64,000 nucleotides of DNA from Sorghum bicolor (Eukaryota > Streptophyta > Magnoliopsida > Poales > Poaceae). The notes below the pieces were generated by a model. The model was not told where the DNA came from and searched no databases. It saw only the letters and a list, made by a program, of their open reading frames with translations. Below are positions 16,830 to 41,261 of the stretch, in pieces. Position 1 is the stretch's first letter, and each line of letters opens with the position of its first letter. The DNA lies in the NCBI RefSeq assembly GCF_000003195.3, contig NC_012879.2, positions 22,664,844 through 22,728,843 of the forward strand. The letters run 5' to 3'. The translations under genes were made by a program, and so were the position numbers.

Positions 16830-17257
16830 CTTACCCCAAGAAGCAGCAGACAACCTACTCAGCCCATGTGAACCACACCTCGATAGAGGAGATCCCGAAA
16901 GGAGAACCGGTAACAACTAGTATGTTCCCTGTCAACCAACATCTTGCAGTTGTTTTGTTTGATACTGGATCATCACATTCATTTATGAGCCAAGCATTTG
17001 CACAAAAGCATGATCAACTAGTTACCGAGTTGGGTTGTGGTTATCGCATCAGTTCAGCTGGGGCTGATGTGTTGACCAACAAAGCAGTAACACGGACTAC
17101 CTTGGATATCAGCGGCTGAAGGTTTTGCATAAACCTTGTGGTCATGCCAGGATTAGTTTTGGATGTTATCATCGGTATGGATAAGAGGACAGACTAGGGT
17201 GCAGTCATAGATGCAGGACAAAGAACTCTCTCCCTTAAGGATCCAAAGGGAGAGGGC
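16830..17257 (+). pseudogene. G1 gag end and aspartic protease
   Basis: Continues the G1 frame right after the second ATGTC target copy. The retropepsin motif VVLFDTGSSHSFMS has its catalytic D-T-G at 16961-16969, followed by the flap/C-terminal part with VMPGLVLDVIIGMD. In-frame stops at 17117-17119 and near 17198 break the chain. The enzyme would have cleaved the gag-pol polyprotein. Confidence 0.88.
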
Positions 17258-18760
17258 ATGCTTCAGGTCAGGTTACCCCGGCGCTTTGACTTTGCCAGTC
17301 GTTTGTGTGCCATACAAGTGGTTCTGCTAGAGCACATACCTGTGGTCTGTGAGTTTCCTGATGTTTTTCTGGAAGAGTTGCCAGGACTTCCCCCGGATAG
17401 GCAAGTAGAGTTTGCTATAGAGTTGATACTAGGTACAGCACCAATCTCTAGAAGGCCGTACCAGATGCCACCTAACGAGCTCGCTGAATTGAAAACTCAA
17501 TTGAAGGAGTTGCTGGATAAAGGTTTCATTCGGCCGAGTTTGTCTAAATGGGGTTGTCTGGCACTGTTTGTGAAGAAGAAGGATCAATCCTTGAGCATGT
17601 GCATGGACTATCGTCCGCTCAATGTTGTGACAATCAAGAATAATTATCCTCTGCCATGGATTGACATCCTGTTTGACCAGTTATCTGAAGCCAAGGTGTC
17701 CTCCAAGATAGATTTGAGGTCTGGGTATCACCAGATCAAGATCCCCCCGCAAGATATACCAAAGACTGCTTTTTCTACAAGATACGGGTTGTATGAGTAT
17801 CTTGTCATGTCATTTGGATTGACAAATGCTCCTGCATACTTTATGTATCTGATGAACTCAGTCTTTATGCTAGAGTTAGACAAGTTTGTTGTAGTGTTCA
17901 TCGATGACATTCTGGTTTATTCAGAGAATGAGCAAGGTAATGCTGAGCATCTAAGGGTCGTGCTGACACGACTGCGAGAACATCAGTTATATGCGAAGCT
18001 CAGCAAGTGTGAGTTCAGGCTTAAGAAACTTCCATTCGTGGGGCACATTCTATCAGAAGAAGGGATCACTGTGGATCCATCAAAAGTACAAGAAGTTATG
18101 GAATGGAAGGCACCAACTTCTGTCTCAGAAGTTCAAAGCTTTCTTGGTTTAGCCGGGTATTATCGTCGTTTCATCCCCGACTTTTCCAAGATTGCTAAGC
18201 CCATGACCAGTTTACTACAAAAGGATCAGAAGTTCGCCTGGACAGAGGGGTGTGAAGTAGCCTTTCGCACCTTGCGAAAGCTACTGACCACTGCTCCTAT
18301 TCTAGCACAACCGAACATCGAGAAGCCTTTTGATATGATTTGTGATGCATTGAAAAGTGGTTTGGGATGTGTGCTGATGCATGAGGGTAGAGTTATAGCT
18401 TATGCTTCACGATAGTTGAGGAAACATGAAGTCAACGATCCAACTCACGACCTTGAACTAGCAGCTGTTGTGCACGCTCTAAAGATCTGGAGGCATTATC
18501 TGCTTGGGAATAAGTGTCATATCTACACGGATCACAAAAGCCTTAAGTACATATTTACTCAATCTGAGTTGAATATGAGGCAGTAAAGGTGGTTGGAGTT
18601 AATCAAGGACTATGATCTTGAGGTCCATTACCACCCAGGCAAGGCTAACGTGGTAGCGGATGCCCTAAGTCGTAAACCACACTATCAAGTGGTCCAACCT
18701 TTGTTTTCAGATGGGTTCAACTTGATGCATCCTGAGGTTCTGTGTCACATACAGCTCGGT
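17258..18760 (+). pseudogene. G1 reverse transcriptase and RNase H
   Basis: The RT part is almost intact. It has [18 protein letters not shown], the [14 protein letters not shown] motif with the first catalytic Asp, [20 protein letters not shown], and the catalytic box FIDD at 17897-17908, then [19 protein letters not shown]. RNase H follows with [12 protein letters not shown] and, after a TAG at 18413-18415, [12 protein letters not shown] and a terminal VVADALSRK. Further stops near 18583 and 18764. This is the classic Ty3/gypsy order. The open stretch at 17258-18412 is the longest surviving G1 reading frame, but without protease and integrase continuity the polyprotein is dead. Confidence 0.92.
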
Positions 18761-20208: not shown

Positions 20209-20609
20209 TGTAACACCCTAGGTGTTAAGCATGCACTTAGCCTCATAAGTATTCTCATCAAGCATGGCATGAGCATAGCATCACATAAGCATAGTACCTT
20301 TTAAATTGTGATTTTATGTGCTTGATTTAAATGAATTAAATATAATAAATTAGTATGCTTGCTTCAAAAATGCTTATGATGACCAAAGTGGGTCGAAATG
20401 TGTTTTAGAAGATTTAAGAATATTTTTGTGAAATTTTGGGAGCTCTAGAATTTGAGAAATGGATTTAATATAAAAATCCCCAAAATAGATTTATTTAAAA
20501 ACCTAGAACTAGTTTTGAATTGCATTTCAATTTTTATTTGGAATTTGGAGTTGCAGCTTAAAGCAAAGCTGTAGAGCTATTTATTTTGATCAACTTTTGT
20601 TTTAGGGGC
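20209..20609 (+). repeat. G1 3' LTR, segment 1
   Basis: Starts TGTAACACCCTAGG after the purine tract. It is interrupted by the Tat element at the target GGGGC (20605-20609). Confidence 0.85.
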
Positions 20610-21307
20610 TGTTGATGCAAAAGCTGATCTGCGAACACAAAAGGCTAATACCCGATTTAAATGTTAAGGCTTGCCAGCCGATTTGACCTTACTATCGGCA
20701 AAGGTGATAATTCGAATACTTTGGTCCCGACAACAGCGATGCGCCCGGATGCCACGGCCAAGAGGTATTCACGCAGAACTTGAGAACACGACGAGCTTAA
20801 GTCGATGAATTCCTAAGAACTCGTAATAAAAAGGAAAAAGTATGATGAAGTCGTCGAAATAGTAGAGGCTGGAATATGAGTAAAAACTGGTGTTTGATTG
20901 ATTGATCGATATGATTTTTACAAGACTCTAGGGTCTATATTTATACCCTGTCCAAAGAGCTACAACCAGACACGACTAGAACTCGAATTCTAAATTTAAA
21001 CAGAATCCGTACACAAAATGATTTAAATAACTAAAGAAAACATAAAAACATCCTCCCGTGACAAACTGGAACACCTCCACAAGCCGATCGGTAACTTCCA
21101 AGTCCTTCCCCCGCATCATCGGCAGACTGCCTTGTTGTAGCCATCGGCACAAACACGTCATTACCTATGGACTTGGTCACGTTCAGCTATCCCTCCATCG
21201 ACAACTATCCTCATCGGTAACCCATTCTGTAGATCAAGTACTGCCGTCTTGTCCTGCTGACCTACACTCTACGGATTATGGACACATGCCCAAAAACGGT
21301 GTCAACA
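20610..21307 (-). repeat. Tat element 3' LTR
   Basis: Starts TGTTGATGCAAAAGC and ends CGGTGTCAACA in plus coordinates. Contains GCCGAT/ATCGGC motifs and the TATA-type region near 20934-20946. Confidence 0.95.
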
Positions 21308-21465
21308 ATGCCCCCCAATTTCGGAGTATGAAAGCATTAATGCTCCGAAATTCTTCGCAGTAAATGATGCCTTTCCGTAATTAATTCTCTCAATTTGGTA
21401 ACCGACAACCTTAATCCAAACAACCCTGATCTGACTCTTCCGCAGATTCCTCAAAATCCTCAACT

Positions 21466-21640
21466 TCCCAAACGGGCACCTCCACTTTAAACGCCCATCG
21501 GCAATATTACCGTTACAAGGACTTGCCGATGGACTGACTAGGACGCCCATATCTTATCCTCCCAAACGGCTATCTCCACTTCATTCGCCCATCGGCAACA
21601 TTACAGTTACAAGGCGCTGCCGATGGACCGACCAGGAGAT
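21466..21640. promoter_or_regulatory. tandem 94-bp units with inverted GCCGAT pairs
   Basis: Two related units start at 21466 and 21560. Unit 1 has CCATCGGCAA at 21495-21504 and its exact inverse TTGCCGATGG at 21523-21532. Unit 2 has CCATCGGCAA at 21589-21598 and TGCCGATGG at 21618-21626. They lie about 180-310 bp upstream of the TATA box of the PMD gene, an operator-like arrangement. Function is inferred only. Confidence 0.6.
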
Positions 21641-21801
21641 CCCGCACAGTAAAATATCTCTGGATAATGACCGCTTCCTATCAAATTGCCTGCACAATCC
21701 CTTGATTACCGTGCGAATAGTTACCATATCTACCTGAGTACCCTTGGATTTCATGGATACGGCGAAGAGATAAGTCAGATTTGCCCTTGCTCGTGTTGTC
21801 C

Positions 21802-21809
21802 TATAAATA
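21802..21809 (+). promoter_or_regulatory. TATA box of the PMD gene
   Basis: TATAAATA within CTATAAATAG, about 150 bp upstream of the ATG at 21955 and in the same orientation as the spliced gene. It supports an independent promoter. Confidence 0.65.
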
Positions 21810-21954
21810 GTTCCTTCTCGGGTACTCCTTCCTCATCACATCATTCCACAGCTCCAACTCCACTTTCCCGGTGGCGGCGCTGTTCGAGAGCTCCAAGATC
21901 TCCAACGAAGTCCCTTCTTCACCAACTCCGAAGCCCTCGGTCATCCTCTTCAAG

Positions 21955-24900
21955 ATGGCCATCAACTTCACCGTTCCTGAGGTCAGTTCTTCACTCCACC
22001 TTTTGTGCTTTTTCTCGCATCCCTATTCATCCGCAATTTATTTTACTGAACATTCTTCCCCCTTTTTTTTGTTCTTCTCTTTACCCTCAAAACCATTAGG
22101 ATCTGTCCATTAAAATTATCATCCCTACCGATCAGCCACATCTCCAATGTCTTGGTCCGTTAGGAGATCCAGATCCCACTGATCTTATTAACGCAGAAAC
22201 AAATAGAATCCCCTTTAGAGCCGAGAATTTTTCTTTGGATCTGTGGAATGATACTTTCCATTAATGGCCCAATCCCACAGTGGGATGGAAAGATTGGTTC
22301 TTGAGAGTCAGCCACTTGAATGAAGTTCAGTGGGGTGAGCGAAAACTGGACCAATGCATTAGGTTGTCTATTGACGATATGCATAGGAACGAATCACTGC
22401 TGATATCTGCATCATATTTCTGGTCAGACACGCTCAACGCCTTTGTCTTTGGCCACGGCCCTACTTCCCCACTCTTGTCGATGTGCTCATGCTTACTGGC
22501 TTAGATGTATCCATTGCCGATAGTAGTCACCTGTTTGATACTACGCCTAGTGCCAAAGTGGACACCCGCACCATCGGCAGCTGGTCTGGGTACATTCAGA
22601 AGTACCGCAGAATGGGGCCTGTCAACATAAAGGAACAAACCACCTTCCTGAACATGTGGCTGGATAAGTTCGTGTTCTGTGGTCGATCGGCAGGACCAAC
22701 CTCTGTCTACCTATCGGCAGCAGAGAGATTAGCCAACGGTGGCCGATTTCCCCTCGGCCGATATCTGCTAGGCTCCGCTTACCACCTCCTCCACCAAGTA
22801 GCCAGAAAACTCCTGCTCGGCCAGCCCATCGGCAACCTAGGAGGACCCTGGTGGTTTATCAACATGTGGCTTAACCTCCACATGCACAAGCGTCTTGAAT
22901 TCAACCTCTTCACGCAACGCTTCCCCAGGGACATAGCCGAGGATTATGAACTGGATGAAGAAGAATCGGCAACTCGCCCTCCTCTGAACTTTGGTGAGGC
23001 TGTCATTGTCTTACCTGGTACAGGTGGCAACACAGACCAGGTCAGCCGATTCTTCCAGACCTTGTATGAAGGCCTGACCAGAGAGCAACGAGCGTGGATG
23101 CCCTATGAAGATCCACATACCATGTTTCCTTTGGTTTTCCATCCATTCAATGACGCTCTCAACAAAGATCATGATGTGATGATGGCACTGATCACCCCCA
23201 GAGCTATACCAGTGAATTTCTTTGGTAGTGGGAAAGCTTCTAACCAAACTTATGAATTCTACAACCCATCGGCACTAGCCTGTCAACTAGCTTTCAGTCA
23301 GCTACCGATTGCTCTCTGTTTTGCCGATGTGATAAAACCCAGGGAAACCATCACGAGCCTTCTTAAGTGGTCCCGAATAGCCCAACTATCGCCGAATGCC
23401 GATACAGATGCAGATCTATCAGAGTGGATCCCAGCCCTCTTCATCACTCAGGCATACAAACAATGGTGGGAGGAATGGAAGGAGCATTTATTTTGCAAAT
23501 CGGCTCTTACATATCGCGGCATGATCGACCCCCAGTACAAAATCCCTGATAACACTGTAAGTACCTCTAAACCGATGTTCTAATCCTTTTATCCTTATTT
23601 TCAATGGTAACTCACCCTTTGTGTCATGTTGCAGGTTGACTACACTCCCCCATCGGTCAGCAGGAGCGGCAAGCCGATTGACGTGTTCCCATCAGGTCTG
23701 ATTTCTTCAATCGGCAACAATGCTCCCACTCTAGCTGCCATCATGCACCGAGCTGTATGACTTAAGAAAGTGACCACCAAGAGAACAAAGACATCTCCAT
23801 CGGTAGCCGCCTCCACCTTAGCACAGGCCTTCAAGGTGATTGTTAAACCTTTCCATTCATACCGATTCCACTTTTACATGTACTTGTACTCATAAATTTT
23901 TCTCCGCATCCGCAGACCAGTGCATCGGCAAGGACCAAAAGCAAAGGTGCCGATGCCCTCCAGTCCAGCCAGCAGAAGAGAAAAGGTGCCAAGAGTACCA
24001 GAGCACAAACAAAGTGCCAGAGAGTGGCAACTCCCCCTCCTCCTCCGGTATCTCCAATTCCGGTGGAATCCTCTCCTTCTTCTCTAGAAACACAGACTCA
24101 GCAAGTACCATCTCCCCCTCAACCGCAAGAAGTACCACAAACGGAAGAACCCCGACCAGAAGAGCTCCAACCAGAGGTGCCTCAGTCAGAAGATACATCG
24201 GCTGATATAGGCGAGAATACTACCGATCCAGCAGGATCAATCATAGCATCGGTAGTTTCTTCATTCCAGACAAGTATTGTCCCCCTCAAGGTAACACATT
24301 TTATAAGATTATTGCCGATGAACCCATCTCTTATGTTTTACAGTCCTTTCTGTTATTCTTTCAGCTGACATAATTCAATCGGCAGTCTCAGCCGATCAAC
24401 CTGTGATTCCATCGGCATCTTCCAGTCAAAGGCGAGAGATCGCCTTGAAGCAAGTAAGCCATCCAGTCTCCATTAGTATTACTTATCAATATATGACCAT
24501 GGAACGACTCACTTTATTTCCTTTGTAGGAACAAGACTCTCCCGACAGCCTCTTTTCCTTTGCCATCGACGTCTTTGAAGATGAAGGTGAGGAAGCAAGC
24601 TCCTCCTGAGCAGTTGGGGTTACATCGGCAGAGATCAGGGCAAGGCTGGAAGAACTGTCGGTTCTCCTTCATCAAGACACGGCCCAACTAGTTGATGACT
24701 CCGATCCGGCCAAGGCTTTATTCAAGACCCTGAGAGGCCAAATCCCCACCAATGCCGAAGAAATCCTTTTCCAAGCAGCACATCTAGAGAGTCGTCAAGT
24801 GCAATCCTAGAGGGCTGCCCAGCGCCTTGCCGATAGAGCCGCTCAGACTCACCTTTCTAAGGAAATGATGAAAGAAAAGCTCCTTACCGTTGAGAAGCAC

Positions 24901-25281
24901 AAGAACATCGGCACCTTGAAGTCCTCAGGAGACGCACTGAAGCAAAAGATTTCTGACCTATCGGCAAGAAGAGAAACTCTGTTGGCAGAACTCAAACAAG
25001 TAGAGGATGCCTTGTCTCAAGCCCGACAGGAAGAAAGCCAACTACCGGAGACAATCAAGCTTCTCGAGCAAGAACGAAACATTCTTGGCCGTAAGGCGCT
25101 GCAGATGAAAAGGAAGCTGAAGCCGGTGGAAGGCTCCGCCGATGACGATTTGAAGGACATAGAGGATGCCAACCAGATCCGTCTGCGCGCCATATCGGCG
25201 ATCCAGGCACTGCTGTACCCATCAGCTCTTCATCGGCAATACATCCTCGCGCCTCCGCTTTCCAGCTTTCATGACATTTAA
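21955..25281 (+). pseudogene. antisense spliced gene: plant mobile domain protein with coiled coil
   Basis: Six exons inferred from GT/AG borders and frame: 21955-21981, 22100-23556, 23635-23835, 23916-24290, 24365-24453, 24529-25281. Exon 1 reads MAINFTVPE. Exon 2 carries the aminotransferase-like plant mobile domain, for example VDVLMLTGLDVSIAD, RLANGGRFPLGRYLLGSAYH and GGPWWFINMWLNLHMHKRL. Exon 4 is proline/glutamate-rich. Exon 6 is a coiled coil (EMMKEKLLTVEKHKN, QVEDALSQARQEES). Disablements: TAA at 22262-22264, frameshift near 22460, TGA at 23758-23760, a TAA at the exon 5 start, TGA at 24607-24609, TAG at 24808-24810. Host PMD proteins such as MAIN/MAIL1 act in gene and TE silencing. 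What this copy does is unknown. It lies opposite to the retrotransposon genes and tail-to-tail with integrase. Confidence 0.8.
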
Positions 25282-25285
25282 TCTA

Positions 25286-25371
25286 GCCGATAGGACTGTT
25301 ATCGGCGTCTTTTGAAACATTAAGTCCAGCCCCAGACACATTTTGATCCAGCCGATAGGAGTGTTATCGGC
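25286..25371. repeat. two GCCGATA-N7-TATCGGC hairpins between PMD gene and integrase
   Basis: Perfect inverted repeats with a 7-nt spacer at 25286-25306 and 25351-25371, a 65-bp period. They fill the 100-bp gap between two converging genes (PMD stop 25281, integrase stop 25382), so a 3'-end or boundary role is possible. Confidence 0.65.
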
Positions 25372-25381
25372 ATTTAAACTT

Positions 25382-26503
25382 TTATGCATCGACCCAAATA
25401 CTTGGGTAGTACTTCTTCAGATATTTGCCATTTAATGCTCTGGGAAATTCAACTCCTTTGAGAGTTTCTAAAATATAGGCATTACCAGGAGCCGATCGAC
25501 TTATCCGATAAGGACCTTCCCAATTGGGAGACCACTTCCCAAGTTTCGAACTTTTAGTCCCGATTGGTAAGATCAATTTCCATACCAAGTCTCCATCGGC
25601 AAACTCCTTAGTCTTCACTTTCTTATCATACCATCTGGCAACTCTCTTCTTATTTTCTTCTATGCTCATTAAAGCTTTCAGCCGATGTCCCGCTAGATCA
25701 TCTAACTCATCTGTCATCAGAGTAGTATAATCATCGGCAGTCAGTTGATCCTGAAAAGATCGTCGCCTAGACCCAGTCTTAATTTCCCAAGGTAACACCG
25801 CATCATGCCCATACACCAACTGATAAGGTGAAACCTTAGTCGATCCATGACAAGCCATCCGGTATGACCACAAGGCTTCGTTCAACAACGTATGCCACCT
25901 CCTAGGATTCTCCTCAATCTTTCGCTTGATGAGCTTGATAATACCTTTGTTAGATGCCTCGGCCTGCCCATTAGCTTGTGCATAATAGGGAGAAGAATGT
26001 AACACTTTAATTCCCATACCGATTGCAAATTCATCAAATTCCCCGGACGTGAACATAGTGCCCTGATCTGTAGTAATCGTCTGAGGAATTCCAAATCGGT
26101 AAATGATGTGCTCTTTCACAAAATCAATCATATTTGCCGATGTGACTTTCTTCAAAGGGATAGCTTCAACCCATTGGGTGAAATAATCGGTGGAAACTAG
26201 AATGAACTTATGCCCTTTGCTAGATGGTGGATAAATCTGGCCGATCAAATCAATAGCCCATCCTCGGAGCGGCCAAGGCTTCATAATAGGGTTCATAGCC
26301 GATGCAGGCGCCCTTTGAATATTACCAAACTTTTGACATCCTTGACACCCTTTAAAATACTTAAAACAATCCTCAAGTATAGTTGGCCAATAATATCCAT
26401 TCCTCCTAATCATCCACTTCATCTTAAAAGCCGATTGGTGTGCTCCACATACCCCTTCATGGATTTCTCCCATCAAACTCTTAGCTTCATCATCACCTAA
26501 GCA
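25382..26503 (-). pseudogene. Tat element integrase
   Basis: The frame from 26476 is 364 residues with no internal stop. H6, H13, C44 and C47 form the zinc-binding part. The catalytic triad is D76 (WAIDLIGQI), D137 (TTDQGTMF) and E173 (NGQAEASNK), spaced as D,D-35-E, followed by the C-terminal GPYRI module and a KYYPS end. It continues in frame from the RT-RNase H frame but is separated by one TGA at about 26503-26505. That codon lies in a CGA-like context, so a single transition could have created it. All catalytic residues are intact, making this the best preserved enzyme of the element. Confidence 0.9.
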
Positions 26504-28615
26504 TCAGAGAAGAATCCCATCTATAGTTCGATAATACAATTCATCTTCGAGGAGCACATACTTGGTGGCTTGAAACCGAATCTGTCTTTCAACTTTCCTA
26601 GATGGATCCCTTAAATAGTCAATGATTTCTTTTCTCCAATCCTCGGCACCGATTGCCGATATTGCATTAATCATAGGCTGATATCCTGAGGCATGCTGAG
26701 CCAACCGATTGGCTTCTTCATTATGCAATCGAGGAATATGCTCTAATCGGAAATCTTTGAATTCCTTCAACAGTTGTATACTGCTTTCGTAATAAGTTAT
26801 GAGAACTTCACTTCGGCATTCATAACTTCTAGCCAATTGATTTATAACTAGCATAGAATCCCCGAAGACCTCAACAGCATCATCATGAACTTCTCTCAAT
26901 AACTCCAATCCCCTTATTAGAGCTTGATATTTAGCCTGATTATTCGTCGACGTGGCAACAATCGGTAGGGAAAACTCATATTTCCTTCCCCGAGGAGAAA
27001 TTAATACTATACCGATTCCTGCCCCCCGGTCACATGTGGATCCATCAAAGAAGAGCGTCCAAGGTACAATTTCCAAAGCCTCCACTGCACCGCAATGTTG
27101 AGTTACAAAATCGGCCATAATCTGTCCCTTAACTGCCTTAGCCGATTCGTAACGCAGATCCAATTCCGACAGCGCCAAAATCCATTTACCGATCCTGCCA
27201 CTCATAATCGGCATAGACAGCATATACCGGACCACATCATCTTTGAAAATAACAGTGCATTCGGCCGATAGCAAGTAGTGCCTTAACTTGATACAAGAGA
27301 AATACAGGCACAAGCATAATTTCTCAATAGCCGAATATCTGGTCTCAGCATCAATCAGCCTCCTGCTTAAGTAATAAATTACACGCTCTTTCCCTTCAAA
27401 TTCTTGAATTAAAGCCGAACCGATGACCATCCCATCGGTAGACAAATACAATCCGAAGGGCTTCCCTTGCTGAGGTGGAATTAGAACTGGAGGATTGACT
27501 AAATAATTCTTGATTTCATCCAGAGCCAACTGCTGTTCTTTCCCCCAAACAAATTCTTGATCGGCTTTTAACTTAAAAAGAGGACTAAAAGCACGAATTT
27601 TATGAGACAAATTAGATATAAATCTTCTGATAAAATTTACCTTGCCGATCAAGGACTGGAGTTCAGTCTTGTTGGTAGGGGCAACTATTTTGTTGATGGC
27701 TTCAATAGATCTTCGACTAATTTCAATCCCCCTTTGATGCACCATGAACCCAAGAAACTGCCCTACCGATACACCAAATGCACACTTATTGGAATTCTTT
27801 TTCAAACCATGCTTCCTTGTGCATTCCAACACCTTTCGTAGATCGGCAAGGTGCTTCGTGAAGTCTCCAGACTTAACCACCACATCATCAATATAAATCT
27901 CCACCAGCTTGCCGATGAACTCATGAAATATAAAATTCATGGCCCTTTGATAAGTAGCACCAGCATTCTTTAAGCCAAAGGTCATGACTATCCACTCAAA
28001 CAACCCGACATGACCAGGACATCTAAATGCGGTCTTTGGAATATCCTCTTCTGCCATGAATATTTGATTATATCCTGCATTACCATCCATAAAGCTAATA
28101 ATCCGATGCCCAGCTGCAGCGTCAACCAGCAGATCGGCAACTGGCATTGGGTAGCCATCCATCGGTGTAGCTTTGTTAAGATTCCTGAAATCAATGCAGA
28201 CTCGAAGCTTCCCGTTCTTCTTGTAAACCAGAACAACATTGGAAATCCATTCGGCATACCGACACTGCCGAATAAATTTGGCTTCAATAAGTTTAGTTAT
28301 TTCGGCTTTGATGTCACGATGAATATTAGGATTACATTGGCGAGCTGGCTGCTGATGTGGCCGAAATCCAGACTTGATAGGTAACCGATGTTCAACAATC
28401 GATCGGTCCAAACCAGGCATCTCAGTATAATCCCAAGCAAAGCAATCTTTATATTCCTTTAACAAATCAGTCAACCGCTGCTTACACTCAGGGCTTAACT
28501 TAGCACTAATAAAAGTAGGTCTAGGTTTATCACCACTACCTATATCTACTTCTACCAAATCATCGGCCGATGTGAACCCCTGGCCTAACTTTCCATCATC
28601 AGCGAACCTATCCAT
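26504..28615 (-). pseudogene. Tat element reverse transcriptase, RNase H and archaeal-type RNase H
   Basis: 703-residue open frame. RT: SFMDGNAGYNQIF with the first catalytic Asp (D177) and the box YIDD at 241-244. Connection and first RNase H follow (GLYLSTDGMVIGSALIQE near 388-405, then FKDD near 457-460). A second, archaeal-type RNase H starts at LFFDGSTCDRGAGIGIVL (D524), with E571 and D586. The expected last Asp is Asn at 636 (HNEEANRLAQ). The dual RNase H is diagnostic for the Tat/Ogre lineage. The frame overlaps the protease stop as TAATG; the shift lies in a T run, so a single-base loss probably split one polyprotein. Confidence 0.93.
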
Positions 28616-29277
28616 TAAAAACCTTCATCAGAACCGACTGCTTGGATCGGTGGAATTTCATAATCGGCATCCTTGAGAAAATCCTTCTCCCAAGCTTCTC
28701 CTAAAATGCACCTAGTCCTTTCATAGGTGTCTACTTCTGCCGATGCAATAACATATGAAGAGTCTCCCGAGACAATTTTAATCTTGTCACCTACCCACTG
28801 GACCAGGCACTGGTGCATTGTAGACGGGATGCAACAATTGGCGTGAATCCAATCTCTCCCTAGCAACAGATTATAGGCACCTTTCCCACTGATCACGAGG
28901 AAGGTCGTCGGCAAGATTTTGCTGCCGATGGTCAACTCAACACATATTGCTCCCTTGACCGGAGACATGTTTCCCTCGAAGTCTTTTAGCATCATATCGG
29001 TCTTGGTCAAATCCTGATCTCCTTTTCCAAGCTTCCGATACACTGCATACGGCATGATGTTGATAGCAACCCCACCATCAATTAAAATCTTGGTCATCGG
29101 CTGACCATCAACCCTTCCTTTGACAAACAGAGCCTTAAGATGTTGCCTTTCATCATCGGTACGCTTTTCGAAGATGGCTGTCATCGGATCTAGCGCCAAC
29201 TGAGCTATCTGGTCAGAAAACTCCAACTCATCATCGCTGGACGGTGCCAGGAATTCCATCGGCAACATAAAGACCAT
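28615..29277 (-). pseudogene. Tat element aspartic protease
   Basis: Reads FVKGRVDGQPMTKILIDGG then AINIMP. The catalytic motif is D-G-G instead of D-S/T-G, and the C-terminal part is YNLLLGRDWIHANCCIPST. It lies between gag and RT in the usual gypsy order, ends DEGF-stop, and is followed by RT in another frame. It would process the polyprotein. Confidence 0.88.
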
Positions 29278-29346
29278 GTTGACATCTGCCGATGGCCCTA
29301 CCCCTTGGGATCTGATTGTTGCTGGTCCCCAGACTGGCCAGAGTTC

Positions 29347-29919
29347 TCACCCTTGCTTAGCCCTTCTCGCCTTTCGCGCTGCAGCCTTCTTTTTCTGTGT
29401 CCTGGTCAATCCCTCTGGACACCATGGAGGAAGTTGCTGCTGCCTTAACGCTGGGCGACAATTTTCCCTCGACTCCATCCGATAGGTGTTGGCTTCCCTG
29501 CAAAATATGAACTCATTGGGAACCCGTGCATTAGCCATTTCTTCAAGTTCTTCTTGATTCCTGGGAAAATATTCAACACGATCCCCAAGCCTGTCGTGCA
29601 CACTGAGCCTGCCCCCCAGCCGATCATGAATGGATGCCCTCCCCCTAATCGGCCCATTAAATTGCCGATCATTATCATGATAGTACCGATCGGACCTGTC
29701 ATACCGGTCATAACCGTCGCACTCAGGACAATCTCTGACAGTGGGAAGTTTGATACTTTCGTCCCAACAATGAATGAAGAACGGGCAATTCCAGTGATCC
29801 CTATGCCGATTCCACTCCTGTCGGCGTCTTTCCTCTTCCCGACGATAATCCTCTTGCTGGCACCAATACCGATCTTCACGTTGCTGCCAAGTCTCCCGAG
29901 GCCTCCTGTGGGTTATCAC
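29347..29919 (-). pseudogene. Tat gag C-terminal, arginine-rich part
   Basis: Highly charged: TWQQREDRYWCQQEDYRREE, then RHRDHWNCPFFIHCWDES with DCPECDGYDRYDR, a repeated SVHDRLGGR/SVHDRLGDR segment and a lysine/arginine-rich end. It has Cys/His residues typical of the nucleic-acid-binding end of Tat gag. It is separated from the main gag frame by a stop. Confidence 0.75.
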
Positions 29920-29958
29920 AATACTAGATCGGAGAGGCTTTCCTGAGCTGGTTCCCTC

Positions 29959-31305
29959 CTAGATCAAGCCCCTTCCTTTCTCATCGGCAGTGGTGACCTG
30001 ATGCTGAGGATCCACCGATGCACTTCTTTCAGCTGCTTCTGATGTTAAGACTTTAGCTTTTCCCTTAACATCCAGCATGTTTGTTTGGAAAGGATGTTGA
30101 TCAATCTTCATCGGCTTCTGGGTCTTGGAGCTGTCAAATTTGATTCTTCCAGATTCTATAGCCGATTGCAGCTGCTGTCTGAAAACCTTGCACTCATTAG
30201 TGCTGTGAGAAGTTGCATTGTGCCACTTACAATACTTCATCTTCTTCAACTCCTCAGCCGATGGGATCACGTGATTTGGTGACAGTTTGATCTGACCTTC
30301 CTGAAGTAGAAAGTCAAATATCCTATCAGCCTTAGTGATGTCAAATGCAAACTTCTCTAGCTCCTTATGCCCAAAAGGACAAGACATCGGCTTCTTGTTT
30401 TTCACCCATTCTGCCAAGCTGATGACTGGTTCCTCATCAAAGTCCGAGCTTGCCGCTTCATCAACGAACGACACCTTTTTGTTCCATGCTCTCTTGGACT
30501 CAAAAGGCTTGATATCTTGATCAGAAATTCTCTGCACCAAATGACTTAAGCTTTCAAACTCCTGAGACGCATACTTGTCCCTGATGTGTGGCAACAAACC
30601 CTGGAAAGCCAAATCGGCTAGCTGCCGATCATCCAGAACCAGGCTATAGCATTTATTCTTGACCTCCCGTATCCTCTGCACAAAACCTTCAACCGATTCA
30701 TCATTGCGTTGCCTCGATTTGACCAGATCAGTGATCTTCTTCTCATGGACCCCAAAAAAGAAGTACTTGTGGAATTGTTTCTCCAGATCGGCCCAAGTAA
30801 TCACTGAGTTGGGAGGTAATGATATAAACCAGGTGAAAGCCGATCCAGACAATGATGACGAGAATAGACGAACCCTTAATTCGTCTCTGTTACCAGCTTC
30901 CCCGCACTGGATGATGAACCTATTGACGTGTTCCATGGTTGACGTGTCATCCTGCCCAGAAAACTTAGTAAAATCCGGTACCTTGTACCGATTTGGAAGC
31001 GGGATCAAATCATATGCGGGAGGATACGGTGTCCGATAAGAGTAAGTGTTGACTTTGGGCTTTATCCCAAATTGATCCCTCATTACTTCAGCAATCTTAT
31101 TGGCCCAATAAGCATCGGCATCTTGCCGATGAGGCGGTTGCGGATCCGGCACCTGCTGGTAGGCTTCCACGTGTCGGTGCGGCGCACGATCTGCATGAAA
31201 CATCGGATTAATCATTTGGCCCCCAACCTGTGGACCACCAAGCTGTTGCCCGCCAATCTGCTGCCCGCCGATCTGCTGACCAAGATTCACTGGCTGATTG
31301 GGCAT
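29959..31305 (-). pseudogene. Tat gag, central capsid-type domain
   Basis: 448-residue open frame: QQIGGQQ repeats at the start, then the gag domain (DFTKFSGQDDTSTMEHVNRF, LRVRLFSSSLSGSAFTWFIS, VEGFVQRIREVKNKC) and a Cys/His cluster (MKYCKWHNATSHSTNECKVF). Several stops separate it from the N-terminal part at 31605-32273, but both belong to one gene. Confidence 0.88.
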
Positions 31306-31604
31306 TCCCTGATTCTAGAACCCGGGATAGATCTGACCTTGCTGGAACCCTATAGCCTGATGACTCTGTTGGGGTGTTTGCGAAAAGACTTGCTGCCCAA
31401 GCCATCCATTATTAGCATTCATCGGCATAGGTCCTGCCGATGACTGGTAATTGGGCATCATCATCGAATTGACATACCCAGGTTGAGTCATAAACCTCTA
31501 TTGCATAACATTGAGTCTGCCGATGTGTTAGGTATCTGGAACATCAGAGCTTGAGAATTCCTAGTGTAAGGTCTTGCAGTAGTAGTTGTGGTATATTGGG
31601 GACT

Positions 31605-32273
31605 CTAATTCATCGGCATATTTGGGGGTGCCGATGCCGTAGGAGCCTTGCCTCTCAGATCATTCGCTTGAGATGTACCAGGTGTCTTGAAGTATTCCGG
31701 AGGCATACCAAAACCCCACCAGTTAGCAGGAGGAACTAGTCCTGACATTGCCGATGCCAATAGATCTGTAGTAAGCTTAATCTGCTCTGAGGTCGGTGGA
31801 TTGGTTGTCATCGGCGTAGACTGTGCATTAGTGACTCCTAACGTGCTTAGAGGAACAGGAATTTTCATAGCCGTAGTGGCTGTAGCAGCTGATGGAGCTG
31901 TGACCACTGGTGATCCTGGCTGATGATGAGAGGGGCCGACATAATCTGGTGGCAATTGTCCTTCCTTGAAAGTTCTAGCCACGGCGTTGAAAACTGTATT
32001 GGACAGCACACCAGCTTGGTTGATCAAGGCACGGTTGATAGCACTATCAACCATCTCTTGAAGTTTACCAGGATTGGCTTCAAAAGTAACCTGCCGAGGC
32101 ATCGACAGCGCATCCTTCTGGATCACTTCGCCGCTCCTGTTCATGCTGAAGGACCTCAGGCATTGCTGCTTGTAATCCTCCATGGCTTTAGCAATAGCTT
32201 GCTTTTGCTCATCCTTGAGATTGGCTTCCGTCACAGGGATGACGTTCTCCTGATCAAACTCAGAAGTCAACAT
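31605..32273 (-). pseudogene. Tat gag N-terminal part
   Basis: The start is placed at the ATG at 32271-32273 (MLTSEFDQENVIPVTEANLK). Upstream residues of the open frame would lie in the primer site and LTR. It contains QKQAIAKAMEDYKQQCLRSF and RQVTFEANPGKLQEMVDSAI, then a proline/threonine-rich linker and ANWWGFGMPPEYF. It ends in a stop, with more stops before 31305. Confidence 0.8.
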
Positions 32274-32295
32274 GTTGATCTTGATCTTGAATCTG

Positions 32296-32313
32296 GTCCC
32301 ACTGGGCGTGCCA
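32296..32313 (-). other. Tat element primer-binding site
   Basis: The minus strand reads TGGCACGCCCAGTGGGAC, seven bases inside the 5' LTR (32321). It ends in the tRNA CCA complement. I cannot name the tRNA with confidence. Confidence 0.75.
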
Positions 32314-32320
32314 AAAGATG

Positions 32321-33018
32321 TGTTGATGCAAAAGCTGATCTGCAAACACAAAAGGCTAATACCCGATTTAAACGTTAAGGCGTGCCAGCCGATTTGACCT
32401 TACTATCGGCAAAGGTGATAATTGGAATACTTTGGTCCCGACAACAGCGATGCGCTCGGATGCCACGGCCAAGAGGTATTCACGCGGAACTTGAGAATAC
32501 GCCAAGCTTAAGTCGACGAATTCCTAGGAACTCGTAATAAAAAGGAAAAAGTATGACGAAGTCGTCGAAATAGTAGATGCTGGAATATGAGTAAAAACTG
32601 GTGTTTGATTGATTGATCGATATGATTTTTACAAGACTCTAGGGTCTACATTTATACTCTGTCCAAAGAGCTACAACCAGACACGACTAGAACTCGAATT
32701 CCAAATTTAAACAGAATCCGTACACAAAACGATTTAAATAACTAAGGAAAACATAAAAACATCCTCCCGTGACAAACTGGAACACCTCCACAAGCCGATC
32801 GGTAACTTCCAAGTCCTTCCCCCGCATCATCGGCAGACTGCCTTGTTGTAGCCATCAGCACAAACACATCATTACCTATGGACTTAGTCACGTTCAGCTA
32901 TCCCTCCATCGGCAACTATCCTCATCGGCAACCCATTCTGTAGATCAAGTACTGCCGTCTTGTCCTGCTGACCTACACTCTACCGATTATGGACACGCGC
33001 CCAAAAACGGTGTCAACA
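32321..33018 (-). repeat. Tat element 5' LTR
   Basis: 698 bp, same length as the left LTR. A minus-strand TATAAATG lies near 32650-32657 and is the probable promoter of the gag-pol transcript. Confidence 0.95.
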
Positions 33019-33159
33019 GGGGCCAAGTCTGGAAAAGATTTTAGATAAGTCAAAATATGCTTGGAAAACAATTGGGAAAAAGAAATTCAAAAAAAAAGGG
33101 AAAGGTGGCAGGTGCTGCTGGGCCGACCCGCCTCCCTTTCGGCCCGCTCAGCCGCGCGA
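33019..33159 (+). repeat. G1 3' LTR, segment 2
   Basis: Continuation of the G1 LTR after the second GGGGC target copy, up to the Athila-2 target CGCGA (33155-33159). It joins a GC-rich stretch that resumes at 42454. Confidence 0.75.
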
Positions 33160-34386
33160 TGTTGATATTTGGTAACGCCATTAGAAAATGATCCGCAAGC
33201 GCACGGATATCAGTGAGCACATCACCCGGGAGGTTATCCAGAGTATCGTATTTATATTTTTACCATTGGGAGAAAGCGTGCATTTTACTAACCAAATCTA
33301 TTGGTACTACCATTTAGGCTACAAAGAATGTGACTCGATGTGATTGATGTATAGAGAAGACTACAACCGTAGTCTTGTTCTAACCTTGGTAAGGATGATC
33401 TACTGTTCTATTGGGGAGGCTCACGGAATCTAGACACCACAGAGGATGTTCGACCCGCACCTATAAACCCTACCCATCCTGCTAACGAGATGTGGGCTGC
33501 AAAGGTAACTCGGAAATGTCACGTTCCTTGCTACTACCATGGTCCAGCTAGTCAGGGGATATCTATGAGTACCCTAGCCCAAACACCACGTTTACGCTAG
33601 CAATGATTACTCTAAACTCAATCGGAAGAGATTAAAGTAAACTCATAAACCAAAGAACAATAAAACAAGAACTTACTAGAATTTAGAAGTCGAATTACTA
33701 AAGAATCCTAGGAGCAACCCTCAGGTTAGAAGAACTTGATCCCGCAGGTACAACCTCGGAGTAGACACCGATAGGCCGGGCTTCCTCCGATCTACACCTT
33801 CACTCTATCTCTCTCAATCTAGTAGAACTTAGAAGAACTAATTCTACTCTCACACTGGGTGCTAAGCCCTAAGTCTATTTAGAGGAGAGGTTATCCTTCG
33901 AGGACACCTCTCAACTCTATGATGAACTTGTTCTCCTCCAAGGGCCAGGGGGTCTGCTTATATAGTTCCCTCAAGTGAATCTGTCCCGTCGGATCAAACC
34001 GACATTGATTGAACGGTTATCCTTGATCCTTTAGGTCGGGGGAGTGTAATCTGCGAGACGGGTCCTGATTGGACTCTGGGGCAGGACGGGCGCCCTATGG
34101 GGGAGGGCGGGCGCCCTGCCCCTGGGCCCGTTCGCCTTCCCGTTCGTTCCCGTGGCTTCTGGAGTCTTCTAGATGACAGAAAATTGGACGGCACGTTAAT
34201 ATCTCTATGTAAACCCGACGTGTGGGCCTTTCTTCTGTATTTCCTGATAACCCCCTGCAGAAATAGACAAACACCAAAACTCATGGAATTCTGTCAGATA
34301 AAACCCTAAGTCTGGGTGTTGGTTGCATTTGGATCCTTTTTTTTATTTATTTGATGATTATATTTGGTACTTAAGGACCGTTAACA
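33160..34386 (-). repeat. Athila-2 3' LTR
   Basis: Starts TGTTGATATTTGG and ends GACCGTTAACA; matches 41262-42453. Carries a TATA-like CTTATATAG near 33956-33964. Confidence 0.92.
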
Positions 34387-36520
34387 ACTCCCCCAAGCCT
34401 ACCTCTTGCTCGTCCCTGAGCAAGGATGAACTCAAGAGTTTCTCTAGTGGTTTCATGCCCTAAAAGTAAGATCTCATCTCTGAGTTAGAGTAAACTATTA
34501 AGACTTAAAACTTACTCATTTTACCTTTCACCATGGGGCTTGTAACCGTCACTTGTGTCTTGAGCAGTTTAAAGATAGAACGGTCAAGTTAAGCGCCATG
34601 TCTCGTGATCTTTGATTAACTATAGCTCTGGAGTTTTTGCAGATTTTCAAATAAAACTCAGAGATTCCTTGTATGACTCTCTCAGATCTCTCTTTTCTGG
34701 TATTTCTGGATCCTTACCAAGGCAGCAATGGTATATGCCTTCTCTCAAAGTATGTGGTATTTTTGATATAAGGCATAGTGATATTGCCTTCTCTCTCACC
34801 CTACTCTAATAAGGTTTTGATATCTGGAGCTCATAGGTGGGAGACAGCTAATACATACTTACAAGACATTTATTGCATAGTCAAACCATGGATCCAGAGA
34901 AACAAGTCAATAAGTTAAATCAAGATGTGCATGTGTGGCGAATGAATGGTGTATGGTGATGATGGTGATAATGGTGAAAGCAATGGTGAAAGTCTAATTC
35001 TACGTTTGCTCTTTTGAGGGATACATACCTTTCTTGCACTTTAAATCTTTTTTTTTGAGGGGAATGTGATGCTCTATATTTTCTTTTTCTTTTTCTCTCA
35101 GGTGGGTATCTTTGTACCACTAATTCTACTGTCGGACACTTGTCCATTTTTACCTCTCGTCTCACTCTTTCTTTTCTTCGAGGTTCCGGGCACTTGCCCA
35201 TTTTTATCTCCTCGTATCCTCTTTTTTTAGAGCACTCATCTCCTTAAATAATATTTTTGGCTATATTCTCCCGGATTACACCGGATTAGTAACCAAGATA
35301 ACTCGAGCATTTATTTCACAGGGAAAAACAGAAATGTTTTTGGCTATATTCTCCCGGATTAGGAGTAGAATACTTTTGGGTGGCTCTGGAGATGGAAGTG
35401 AGTGGATATATGTAGATGCGTACTTCCGGAGTAGAAGCAGCATGTGTGAGTGAACGTGCAAGTGAATCTTGATTTTAGCAACATGACAAGCTCCTAAGGG
35501 TCTACACAGCTTGACCACACTCAACGCTCATAAGCAGTAAAATGTAAATGTGTGGCTCAAAGTCTAATAAGCATGTATATATGGCTGTGGTAGGATTTTA
35601 AACTCTCATCATGCAGGAACTCATCATGTGTTATTTTAAAGATTTTCAAAGATAAAATTCTCCAGAATTCTAGCATCTCTAGGAACGGATAAACAGCAGC
35701 TCAACCTTTCCATATTATATCTGTTAACGACTTAAACTTTAGATCAAGTACTCTTTCCACAAGTTCAGGTTTAGAGCAGGTTTAAATTATAACAGTTATG
35801 CCTAAACTTGAGAGAGAGCTCAAACTTGAAAACTAGGTACATGGCAGAGCAACTATTTATCATATCCATGTAAGAGTTTATCATAATGGTTTAGTTTGGC
35901 CTAGACTCTTTATTTATTTATTTAGCAAATTAAGCAAAGATATGTATAAACACAAAATTTCTATTTGGGTTTTCATGATTATACATCTTTTTATTATTTG
36001 AGTAAAGTATAAACACGAGTAGAAACACTTAGCTGGATAAATGGGGGTGCTCTCCCCCAAGCTGGATTTTGACGTTATTTCTTCTAATATAGCTAGCAGG
36101 TGGTGGAGGCGTATTTGAAAGTCGGCAGCACCCTGACAGCGATTAGGATGTCCTCCGTCTACTAGTCTTCTTTGATCCTTGGATTCTGTGGAGCTCAAAT
36201 ACAAAACAAAGCTTTGTAGAACTGGTTAAGTGTTAGCATAAAATCTCTTTGCCTTTATCATATTGAGCTTCCTCCTAATAAATTTTATTTAGCAGGATCA
36301 TGCACTTATTATTTATATTTTTATTGTAAGATGAAAACATATTTATTTTATGCCACCACAGTCAATATACCTATGGGTTTTTAAACCACAAGTCTATTCA
36401 CATGGGGCTTACCATTTTTAACATTTTTATTTTCTTTTCAAGATAGCATGAACCTGATTAGCTAAACAAACTATTGAAAGGAAAAGGATAACTACCATGT
36501 TTACCTCTTGGCAAGGCGTT
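34387..36520 (-). other. Athila-2 3' non-coding region and purine tract
   Basis: Begins ACTCCCCCAAG (purine tract on the minus strand). Homologous along its length to 7258-9430 and 50001-52090. No coding signal. Confidence 0.8.
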
Positions 36521-36768
36521 CAATGTTTTTTAAGTCCTCTGAACGGAACTCTCCGTTTTCTCAGTCGTCCTAGGATTCGCTGGACGGCGTAGTCGGTGGT
36601 TCCGGCGGCTATAACTATCTTCTCTTTCTACATCTGACTCGGTGCTACGGTCTCCTCAGGACGGTTCTGTTCAAGCTGTATGTCTTCAGACCTTACCACT
36701 TCTCCTTCGTAGTCTATCCATCTGTCCTTAATGATTTGCCTCCTCTAGTTTCGGTTGCGTCACCTTCT

Positions 36769-37269
36769 TCAGAGGAAAGTGCATGTGGACTTCTCTGGTT
36801 CCAATATAGATGATGGCTTTGATAGTGTTGAGGAACGGTCTTCCAAGGATGGTGGGTGGATCATACTCTTCTTCTCCCATGTCAATGACCTAAAAGTCAT
36901 CTGGTGCTGAATATATATTGGTTGTAGGGGCATGGTTCCATGCAGGAGCTGATAAGTGACTGCGGCCATTATGTTGTCGTCAGATCCGGTGTCGTAGAGT
37001 GTCTTCTGAAAAGAGTATCCATTGATTGTGCACTCGATGCTTGGAACACCAGGTTCGTCCTTCTTGATCAGGAAAGGCAACTTGAGTCGACGATCTTGAC
37101 CTCCTCCGACAAGGATCCAATGTTTTAAGTTTTCTAGACAAGACTTCTCACCGTGTTCATCCTTTAGGTGTATCATTTGATTAGGTGTGGACCTTGACAT
37201 GTGCACTTCTTGATACGGAGTCACCCATGTTCGTTGTTTGCCCAGTAGTTTGAAGTGCGGTGTTGGCAA
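36769..37269 (-). pseudogene. Athila-2 aspartic protease-like remnant (second protease domain)
   Basis: Minus-strand frame with LPFLIKKDEPGVPSIECTIN leading into LYDTGSDDNIMAAVTYQLL. The catalytic D-T-G is intact at 36985-36993, followed by GTMPLQPIYIQHQM. After that the frame breaks. In another frame the C-terminal part continues as VIDMGEEEYDPPTILGRPFL, with some codons lost. It corresponds to the second protease domain of Athila-3 (52295-52735). I see no first protease domain in Athila-2. Confidence 0.75.
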
Positions 37270-38641
37270 TATCCTGCTCAGTGTGTTTGTGCTCGTAGAT
37301 CTAGGTCCCTCTAGGACTTGTAAAACTCCTCCATGTTTTGCTTGAAGTGTACCTATTCATAGAGACAAGGCAGAGATCAAGTGCATGGGCCCTATTGGTG
37401 GAAAACACCAACAGAACCAAAAGTGTATTTGTTCTTCTCTAACCTTAAGCATAGTGAGCAAGACAAAGTTGATGGATCATGATTGTAGCATTTGTCAGAT
37501 CAGATGGCTCAACCTAATGGAAAGATAATCTATCTATATTTATGTTTTGTTTATATCTTCCAAAGATTGAATGTGCAACATATTAGCTTATATGATTAAG
37601 AGTGTGGGATCACGAAGGTAGTACTAAGAACAAAGATTAAAGGACTAAACATGTTGAATTAATTGGGTTGGTTAATTTGGAGCTACAAATCATACATGTT
37701 TGTCTCTTTTATTCATGTGTATGCCAGAACCAAGGAGAAGCTTATAGAAGTGATAGTCAAGTACCTTAAGGTGTTACCTTACTTGAAGAGTGATGGTATA
37801 GTATCACCTTGTGGAAGCTTTCCTTTATTAGCGGTTGTGCATCGTGTTTATGATGAATGAGCTATATCCTTCTTGTGCAAATTTTTAAACTTCATGTGTC
37901 TCCTTTATCTCCAATGAGTTTGTATCTCAGGACTTCCCAAGTTGATATTGAAAGTTTTCCTGCAGGGGTTAGTCCAACAAAATATCTCATATCTACTATA
38001 GCATACTATCGGCTCAAAAATCAACCTAGACACCATGTCTAATTTGATTTAGGAGGGCATTTTAACCTAAGCACCATGCTTAATTTAAAAATCCTTTGGA
38101 AGTAAGATCATCATTCCTAAACTAAGCACCATGCTTAATTAAGAGATAAATGAAACTACTCCAAACCTAGACATATACTAAAGCAGATAAAGGTAGCATG
38201 AGAGCATTTATAGAGATCTATTCAAGTGGAGATGAAGTAGTGTGACTAGTATTTAACAAATCAAGCATGTATCAAAGGTAGGGACAACCAACATAGCAAC
38301 TTGGCAAAGGATGTTTTCATGTGAAGTACTCCCCCAAGCTTGAATTTTGCAAAATTCAAGATTGGATGAATTTTAATTCAATGTTGTATGATGGTTGGTT
38401 GGACATACCTTGTGCTTGTCATTCATCTGATCTTCTTGCTCCAATCCTGGAAGGGTTAGTGACAAGAATACCCGAAGGAATATTTCGACAATTATCCTTA
38501 TATGCTCAATACACAAGGCAATGTTGCAAACAATTAGAAGTTCATGTTACGATCCGATCAATGCTTGTTTTAGGATACTAAGCTTGTCCTTGGGAAACCA
38601 TCAATTTATGTCGGCAAAGTGGTTTCCCCTCCAACGCTGAC
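37270..38641 (-). other. Athila-2 internal non-coding stretch
   Basis: No supported gene. The part to about 37900 and from 38400 onward matches 9640-10524 of Athila-1, while 37920-38390 has no counterpart there and is stop-dense. Confidence 0.55.
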
Positions 38642-39487
38642 CTATATCAAGATCAACTCAACGAGATCTGCAATATTTATTATAGACATATGCATCGACA
38701 ACCGCCCTTTTAAAGTTTTTATAAATAGAAAGGAAGAGGGGGTTGGAGATCTCAAATGCGGTGATGTTGGAGAGACCAATTGATTGGGGAGATGTTTATA
38801 TGAGTAAGGACTTGGTGAGGTATTTATGAAATAACTTCCATGCTCACTGTTGTTTCTCTCATTCTCAAACTCCAAGGATAATTCTTCATGAATGCTTAAA
38901 ATTCCTCTAGGATTGTCTCTCAAGTTTGTTTTATCCATCCATTTAATGGTGATAGCACATGGATTTTTAATGCCCTCTAGCCATTGATGTTGCTCTTCTC
39001 GATCCTCCTTGTGGTCTTGGTGACTCTTATGAATGGGATGTCTAGAGAGATTCATAGGATCATCGGGAGGTTCAAGAGAAAGAGCATAGGAGAAATTATT
39101 AGGCTCAAGGATGGGTTGGATAGCCGAATCATGGGATTGGAATGTTTGGAAATTGGCTATTGAAACTTCCTTTCCTTGTCTGGGAGATGATTCCTTCTCT
39201 ATCTCTAGGAATTTTTTATGAAGACTAGTGCAAGAAGGATGTCCACAAATGAAGACATACCTTCCTTTACTAATAGATAAAGAAAGAAAGGCTCTACCAA
39301 AGGTTATATGATTAAGACCAATGTGAAAATATCGAGAAAAAACATGGTCTTGTAGGGCTAGGTTTAAACCAGAATTTATAGAAAGATTAACAGATTCCCT
39401 AGGTGTAGTTAAAAGTTCATTATCTTCTTGATTAAAAGATAGGACCTCGGCTATAGAAAAGGGTTGGTTTTGACCTATTGCAATCAA
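38642..39487 (-). pseudogene. Athila-2 gag remnant, C-terminal part
   Basis: 281-residue frame with NLALQDHVFSRYFHIGLNH, a KEVSIANFQTFQSHDSAIQP segment and a terminal KTLKGRLSMHM. It aligns in order with the C-terminal half of Athila-1 gag (KVSIAKLQPLQSETLAIDP). The N-terminal end, MDNSNSPIIEFFAPSETSH, lies beyond the insert, ending near 41191. Much of the capsid region is missing, so it is non-functional. Confidence 0.7.
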
Positions 39488-39497
39488 CTCCGGACAC

Positions 39498-41082: not shown

Positions 41083-41087
41083 GACAC

Positions 41088-41191
41088 AGATCATAATTAG
41101 GGGCAAAGAAAGGACTTGTTGACTCCCATGGTCTATGGCTGGTCTCTGAAGGTGCAAAAAATTCAATAATAGGTGAATTAGAGTTATCCAT
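41088..41191 (-). pseudogene. Athila-2 gag start
   Basis: Reads MDNSNSPIIEFFAPSETSHR and about 15 further residues, then is cut by the solo-LTR-like insert. It lies about 45 bp inside the primer-binding site, the expected place for a gag start. Confidence 0.65.
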
Positions 41192-41235
41192 GAAGATGAA
41201 AAAATAAAAATATAAATTTTAGCAAACCGTCTTTC

Positions 41236-41253
41236 TCCCCGGCAACGGCGCCA
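41236..41253 (-). other. Athila-2 primer-binding site (tRNA-Asp)
   Basis: The minus strand reads TGGCGCCGTTGCCGGGGA, a perfect complement of the plant tRNA-Asp(GUC) 3' end including CCA, eight bases from the LTR. Confidence 0.9.
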
Positions 41254-41261
41254 GAAATGCT

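Follow-up and report, generated by a model that had tools for sequence, protein, structure and literature searches.

The window analysed here, a stretch of 64,000 nucleotides from Sorghum bicolor (contig NC_012879.2, forward-strand positions 22,664,844 to 22,728,843), contains a complete long terminal repeat (LTR) retrotransposon insertion at 20610..33018, with gag-pol on the minus strand. The element is saturated with the hexamer GCCGAT and its complement ATCGGC, of which 97 dispersed copies lie on both strands between 20677 and 32929 by exact count. Its boundaries are exact, with TG...CA termini and the target-site repeat GGGGC on both sides (20605..20609 on the left, 33019..33023 on the right). 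The two LTRs, each of 698 bp in minus orientation, occupy 20610..21307 (the 3' LTR relative to gag-pol, with 5 exact motifs) and 32321..33018 (the 5' LTR, with 6); they are 96.3% identical, differing at 26 positions, which suggests an insertion age of the order of 1–2 million years at the substitution rate that we take to apply to grasses.

Pfam matches on the minus strand place gag at 29347..31314 (Retrotrans_gag with E 2.1e-12 over 29959-31314; an in-frame stop interrupts gag in this copy), a weak aspartic protease at 28615..29346 (22.7 bits, under the cut-off of 28.2), a single open reading frame (ORF) with reverse transcriptase (RT) and two RNase H domains (RT_RNaseH and RVT_3) at 26504..28624, and an integrase with H2C2 and rve domains at 25382..26503. 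On the plus strand, between the integrase and the 3' LTR, lies an antisense gene with a plant mobile domain (PMD) at 21955..25281. A dual RNase H following the RT and an additional antisense ORF separating pol from the 3' LTR are both features of the Tat clade, and on these two features we assign the element to the Tat group of plant Ty3/gypsy elements. The window copy is dead, both gag-pol and the PMD gene being interrupted by stops and frame changes.

The predicted exons of the PMD gene, with limits read by eye, are 21955-21981, 22100-23556, 23635-23835, 23916-24290, 24365-24453 and 24529-25281 (+), and comparison with homologs reveals in-frame stops and a frame change in this copy. An earlier note on this DNA had recognised a PMD on the opposite strand, and rightly so: PF10536 matches the antisense gene with an E of 3.6e-8 and 33.4 bits, slightly under the curated cut-off of 34.9 in this broken copy, and is carried by many of the 120 listed PMD homologs. 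Among the Pfam matches of nine ORFs, no other domain reached cut-off in the antisense gene. The product is composed of the PMD, basic and proline-rich linkers and long C-terminal helices; this last part (24811..25281, +) has a coiled-coil-like character, with weak coiled-coil Pfam matches that all fall under cut-off, and is predicted to be helical by a single-sequence model (mean predicted local distance difference test score, pLDDT, 82.6; predicted template-modelling score, pTM, 0.37). The non-coding spacer at 21308..21950 (+), with 4 exact motifs, is the probable promoter side of the gene, in which TATAAATA at 21802-21809 may serve as a TATA box. The spacer also contains a 94-bp near-duplicate at 21466-21637 (1.8 copies, 83% matches by Tandem Repeats Finder), with one inverted motif pair per copy.

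The saturation had first been noticed as a hand count of about 97 hexamers in 12.4 kb, with a handful in the other 51 kb, and exact counting reproduces both figures: 97 copies in 20610-33018, 48 on one strand and 49 on the other, and 8 in the remaining 51.6 kb, where a Markov model of order 1 predicts 11.6. The expectation within the element is 4.7±2.0 at order 1, 10.6 at order 2 and 49.5±7.3 at order 3, where the model has most of the word built in; even so, the maximum among 100 order-3 simulations was 68. At order 4 the count is no longer an outlier, as is to be expected when the pentamers of the word are enriched themselves. GCCGAT also stands far above other hexamers, being the most frequent one in the element, with an order-1 z of 39.7 compared to a top z of 9.2 when five further 12.4-kb blocks of the window, some of them overlapping, are treated alike. 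This top value belongs to GGCGCC in 33019-45427 (16 copies vs 1.9 expected). Around the sites, an extended preference of the form Y-T-GCCGAT-G-R is apparent. ACCGAT constitutes a second form (34 copies, 9.4-fold enriched), GCCAAT, another one-mismatch word, is enriched 5.2-fold, and GCCGAC, with 3 copies (0.66-fold), is not enriched.

These neighbouring words bear on the possibility that the element exploits a host protein which occupies the sites, be it an activator, an insulator or a chromatin factor. The present evidence does not name the binder, and the R-CCGA core is reminiscent of what we take to be AP2/ERF-type sites. However, GCCGAC, presumably the DREB-type variant, is the very form that lacks enrichment, some 100 sites over 12 kb far exceed the needs of a borrowed enhancer, and the rest of the window falls slightly below expectation. 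We regard such a host factor as quite unlikely.

Motif density is practically uniform across LTR (7.88 per kb), coding (7.83) and non-coding DNA (7.78), the earlier note having already placed copies in LTRs, codons, introns and spacers, and the spacing of sites fits a random distribution (91 sites, one LTR left out; Kolmogorov–Smirnov P 0.68). Tandem repeats in the element amount to the 1.8-copy, 94-bp repeat in the spacer and a short 15-bp repeat (Tandem Repeats Finder). When codons were shuffled synonymously within each of eight reading frames, keeping both the protein and its codon use, 13.6±3.2 motifs were obtained compared to the 65 observed, with a maximum of 24 in 1000 shuffles, and motifs occur in all three codon phases. 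The saturation is therefore independent of protein sequence, codon use and tandem repeats. CpG content outside the motifs is 0.61, against 0.63 in the rest of the window.

In the window copy, pairs of sites within 100 bp of each other are in opposite orientation in 52 cases and in the same orientation in 18, a bias reached by 0 of 20000 permutations (again with 91 sites and one LTR left out). Such a preference would suit a dimer or RNA stems, and in the latter case the word would act in RNA or single-stranded DNA, with opposite neighbours forming short stems that act as scattered signals for packaging or structure. In agreement with stems, the mean predicted pairing probability of the arms is 0.82-0.89 in short segments, and the real segments rank at 0.65 and 0.67 (two strands) among shuffles of the other bases, or at 0.57 and 0.64±0.05 with the flanks resampled too. 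However, the bias falls to 57:34 (P 0.007) in the sites shared by the family described below, the flanks of inverted pairs match no more than at random (49/136 vs 44.2, P 0.22), and stems require complementary arms, not one fixed word. We consider a role in stems improbable. The orientation rule itself was dropped as a firm property and retained as a lead for the stem hypothesis, since it is strong in the window copy but weaker across family sites; for the 18 family sites absent from the window copy in one of the comparisons, neighbours are opposite in 12 cases and the same in 18.

Other copies of the element were sought in the same genome (709 Mb, 846 contigs). For the LTR query 40 of 4728 first-look candidates were scored and for the RT query 63 of 23245; 30 loci were retained for each, together with 8 further PMD-region pieces. 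Sixty-five of these 68 pieces were analysed, three from the window copy being left out, and as some share one insertion, not all are independent. The alignments comprise 28 LTR, 17 spacer, 13 PMD, 35 integrase–RT–protease and 14 gag/leader pieces, with 30101-30819 uncovered. Scans of the viral_contigs and genome_contigs sets yielded no related DNA that was confirmed by tblastn.

The exact word is present in at least half of the copies at 98 positions, of which 79 are also found in the window copy and 19 have been lost there. At 85 of the 98 shared sites, divergence is lower than in the flanks of the same site (Wilcoxon 4e-15). It amounts to 0.046 over the extended motif (ten bases) and 0.093 over twenty flanking bases (ratio 0.50), and our claim of conservation rests on this site-by-site contrast between motif and flanks. 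The same holds at four-fold degenerate third positions, identical in 0.907 of cases within motifs (n=41) and 0.837 elsewhere (n=472, P 0.02). All 29 RT-region pieces contain 34-44 motifs in 5.1 kb. Relative to the window copy, motifs are intact in 0.87 of copies in the LTR (5 sites), 0.88 in the 3' internal part (6) and 0.77 in the 5' internal part (11), compared to 0.55, 0.46 and 0.60 for other hexamers, a comparison that somewhat favours motifs as it counts just those sites intact in the window.

Variants common to at least two copies, which are mostly transmitted, number 88 at motifs vs 180.9 expected from columns of equal methylation context, while singletons, mostly post-insertion changes, number 146 vs 164.7 (Fisher 5.6e-5 for the contrast against outside columns). 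With shared variants halved and singletons near normal, selection during propagation is indicated rather than slow mutation; under slower mutation alone, both classes of variant would have fallen alike. By region, the ratio of observed to expected shared variants is 0.54 in the LTR, 0.24 in the spacer, 0.24 in PMD, 0.67 in integrase–RT–protease and 0.21 in gag/leader; singletons are low too in the spacer (0.55) and PMD (0.65), where few copies are aligned. We conclude that GCCGAT saturation is a family-wide trait selected at the DNA level.

Changes at motif sites across the copies are mainly C>T and G>A, and the one-mismatch neighbour words consequently look like products of decay. This matters for the view that a mutational or compositional artefact has spread the word through the element, in favour of which one could cite the enrichment of several such words, ACCGAT and GCCAAT among them. 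That view is further contradicted by the synonymous shuffles, by the similar CpG content outside motifs and by the deficit of shared variants alongside near-normal singletons, and we give it almost no credence.

Homologous proteins were compared as well. In the PMD exon (120 listed of 227 homologs), motif-coded residues are conserved at 0.874, compared to 0.722 for residues of matching type (P 0.0004); the linker exon gives 0.80 vs 0.59 (P 0.001; 8 residues, 48 homologs). Two further candidate observations were rejected. Motif dipeptides at new PMD positions favour the motif in raw counts (e.g. 124 to 31) but not when counted once per column, where forward dipeptides are roughly as common as reversed ones (16:16, 21:12 and 11:16 in PMD; 19:24, 13:14 and 12:11 in gag). 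An intron motif at 24314 was dropped as a conservation island because alignment ends bias the count; at this site, proline and then M or I is retained in 15 of the 24 relatives whose frame continues beyond the junction (by eye).

With a PMD protein from a public record (P0026, 63% identical to that of the window) as a query, 90 of 5593 candidates were scored in the same genome and two PMD exons were fetched, known here as exons alone, with 69-70% DNA identity to the window exon. GCCGAT is the commonest hexamer in both, with 7 motifs in 1413 bp vs 0.47 expected and 11 in 1263 bp vs 0.33. Four motifs in each lie at positions occupied in the window (out of 13 and 11 comparable sites), and 3 and 7, respectively, lie elsewhere. 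Three single 6-kb pieces served as controls. A Retand-like Tat piece with a Transposase_28 gene and RT and no PMD in the piece (L069) has 4 copies of GCCGAT and is not saturated, in keeping with a link to the PMD gene; two pieces with PMD beside a Mu-like MULE transposase (L070 and L071) have 2 and 0. The observation in the earlier note is thus real and stronger than claimed, being family-wide, under DNA-level selection and common to diverged PMD exons of the same genome. L069 contains a 70-bp tandem array of 4.7 copies at 3690-4016; its enriched hexamers were rejected as dispersed words, being largely products of this array, and CGACCA, still enriched outside the array (14 vs 2.9 expected), might be a dispersed word of that family, though a weaker one.

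The host PMD proteins MAIN and MAIL1 are reported to function in silencing (PMC5418596, PMC7156037), and one could imagine a host silencing factor for which the sites are a liability to the element. The element should then shed its sites, yet transmitted lineages retain them, as do the diverged PMD exons, which makes this scenario very hard to believe.

GCCGAT is most likely a DNA-level recognition site, since the word is saturated, codon-independent, conserved in the family, kept in diverged PMD exons and not saturated in the controls. A short word of fixed sequence, present on both strands and in genic and non-genic DNA alike and selected during spread, is what a sequence-specific DNA-binding protein would need, and the element's own extra gene, encoding the PMD, would be a natural candidate for its reader. 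Dense sites over the whole body could let one such protein, perhaps a dimer formed through the C-terminal helices, distinguish the family from all other DNA, and once bound it might hold chromatin open over the full length of the element, so that methylation could not spread over it. We infer each of three steps here: a DNA-binding protein as the reader, the PMD product as this protein, and anti-silencing as its effect. On sequence evidence, anti-silencing would be the best single explanation, and we give not quite an even chance to the proposal that the hundred or so sites bind the antisense-encoded PMD protein, which coats family copies and opposes silencing. The fuller proposal, of a self-recognition code with about one GCCGAT per 130 bp across LTRs, introns, spacers and gag, pol and antisense codons, read by the element's own PMD protein to keep its copies unsilenced and evolved apart from VANC, is tentative, and we would sooner doubt it than assert it. 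To our knowledge, such a sequence-specific anti-silencing system in a retrotransposon would be the first of its kind.

A precedent for the existence of such a system is provided by the VANC proteins of Arabidopsis (PMC5735166). The likeness drawn earlier to VANDAL21/VANC21 holds in part: there too a short motif is packed in the copies of one family and rare in other elements (GCCGAT being rare in the rest of the window and the three control pieces), motif density is thought to confer specificity, and the reader is element-encoded, as proposed here (PMC5735166). It fails in transposon type, orientation, tandem arrays and coding location. VANDALs are DNA transposons with a VANC gene, whereas the present element has LTRs, gag-pol and PMD; VANDAL21 motifs are chiefly non-coding, often in tandem repeats and in one orientation (PMC5735166), whereas here there are no tandem arrays, the strands are balanced 48:49 and coding DNA is as dense as non-coding. 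The 94-bp near-duplicate beside the probable PMD promoter is the sole VANC-like duplication seen in the element. Furthermore, targets of VANC21 and VANC6 carry different motifs, while the same word recurs here in diverged PMD exons, and VANC21 binding was shown by chromatin immunoprecipitation sequencing and electrophoretic mobility shift assay (PMC5735166), while the present sites are known from sequence alone. Of the three outcomes that the earlier note named as refuting its reading, none was observed: the count exceeds that of shuffled sequence and of other hexamers, family copies preserve the word better than adjacent bases, and the single Tat piece without PMD is not saturated. The earlier interpretation is, overall, partly supported.

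Retand-lineage Tat elements share with our element gag-pol on one strand and an antisense gene between pol and the 3' LTR, whose product has a proposed DNA-binding and regulatory role; its domain, however, is Transposase_28, unlike the PMD here (PMC11963269), and the sampled piece of this kind, L069, has its 70-bp array without GCCGAT saturation. The regulatory roles proposed for these antisense proteins lend some weight to a function other than anti-silencing, in which an element-encoded protein, the PMD product or another, would read the sites for transcription activation, for coating and protection of cDNA, or for guiding integration relative to sister copies. The same evidence for selected DNA-level sites applies to it, and sites are present in both LTRs. 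Activation alone, however, would not need gene bodies as dense in sites as LTR DNA, yet the LTRs are no denser. We judge these functions unlikely, if still to be reckoned with.

PMD in an extra ORF of Ty3/gypsy elements, as found here, has been described for PMD-bearing Ogre/Tat elements and PMD-A clades, with PMD reported in 57% of Ogre elements; the accessible portions of these accounts mention no dispersed motif (PMC6317226, PMC5418596). PMD clades A1 and A2 are confined to Gypsy elements, and an anti-silencing use has been proposed in print for PMDs captured by MULEs (PMC5418596). A DNA motif is enriched in the promoters of those genes whose expression falls in main and mail1 mutants (PMC7156037). 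The literature searched, which covered few subscription papers, yielded no account of a hexamer dispersed through an element of this kind.

Several results weigh against a PMD-read, selected code. A search of the PMD alignment against solved structures gave no match and the predicted PMD model is unusable (pLDDT 32.5), so that DNA binding by PMD is without structural support. PMD alone does not imply saturation, as L070 and L071 are not saturated by any word (top z 8.2 and 6.6), and Tat elements without PMD are represented by the single piece L069. In gag, across the 80 homologs with identities of 60% or more, motif residues do not differ significantly from controls in conservation (0.770 vs 0.736, P 0.24). 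Unpaired column rank tests of motif against other bases are non-significant in the LTR (P 0.55), spacer (0.06), leader (0.74) and RT–integrase–protease (0.40), with motif-column means above context-matched expectation in all four. Finally, the LTR motifs of the window copy have not been spared, 3 of 7 sites differing between the LTRs, although such decay is expected of a silenced copy.

A selected, fixed word across a PMD-bearing family is a concrete candidate ligand for PMD, making the function of this domain family directly testable. If the anti-silencing proposal is true, sequence-specific anti-silencing would have arisen in retrotransposons, which make up the bulk of many plant genomes, and selection would be capable of working a binding code of some 8 sites per kb into sequence that also encodes protein.

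Among gag relatives with a named host, the best-scoring one comes from Panicum miliaceum. Elsewhere in the window, a second gypsy-type RT lies at 17198-18415 (+), about 2 kb to the left of the element, and a distant integrase-like fragment, 27.6% identical to the element's integrase, lies at 3068-3433 (-).

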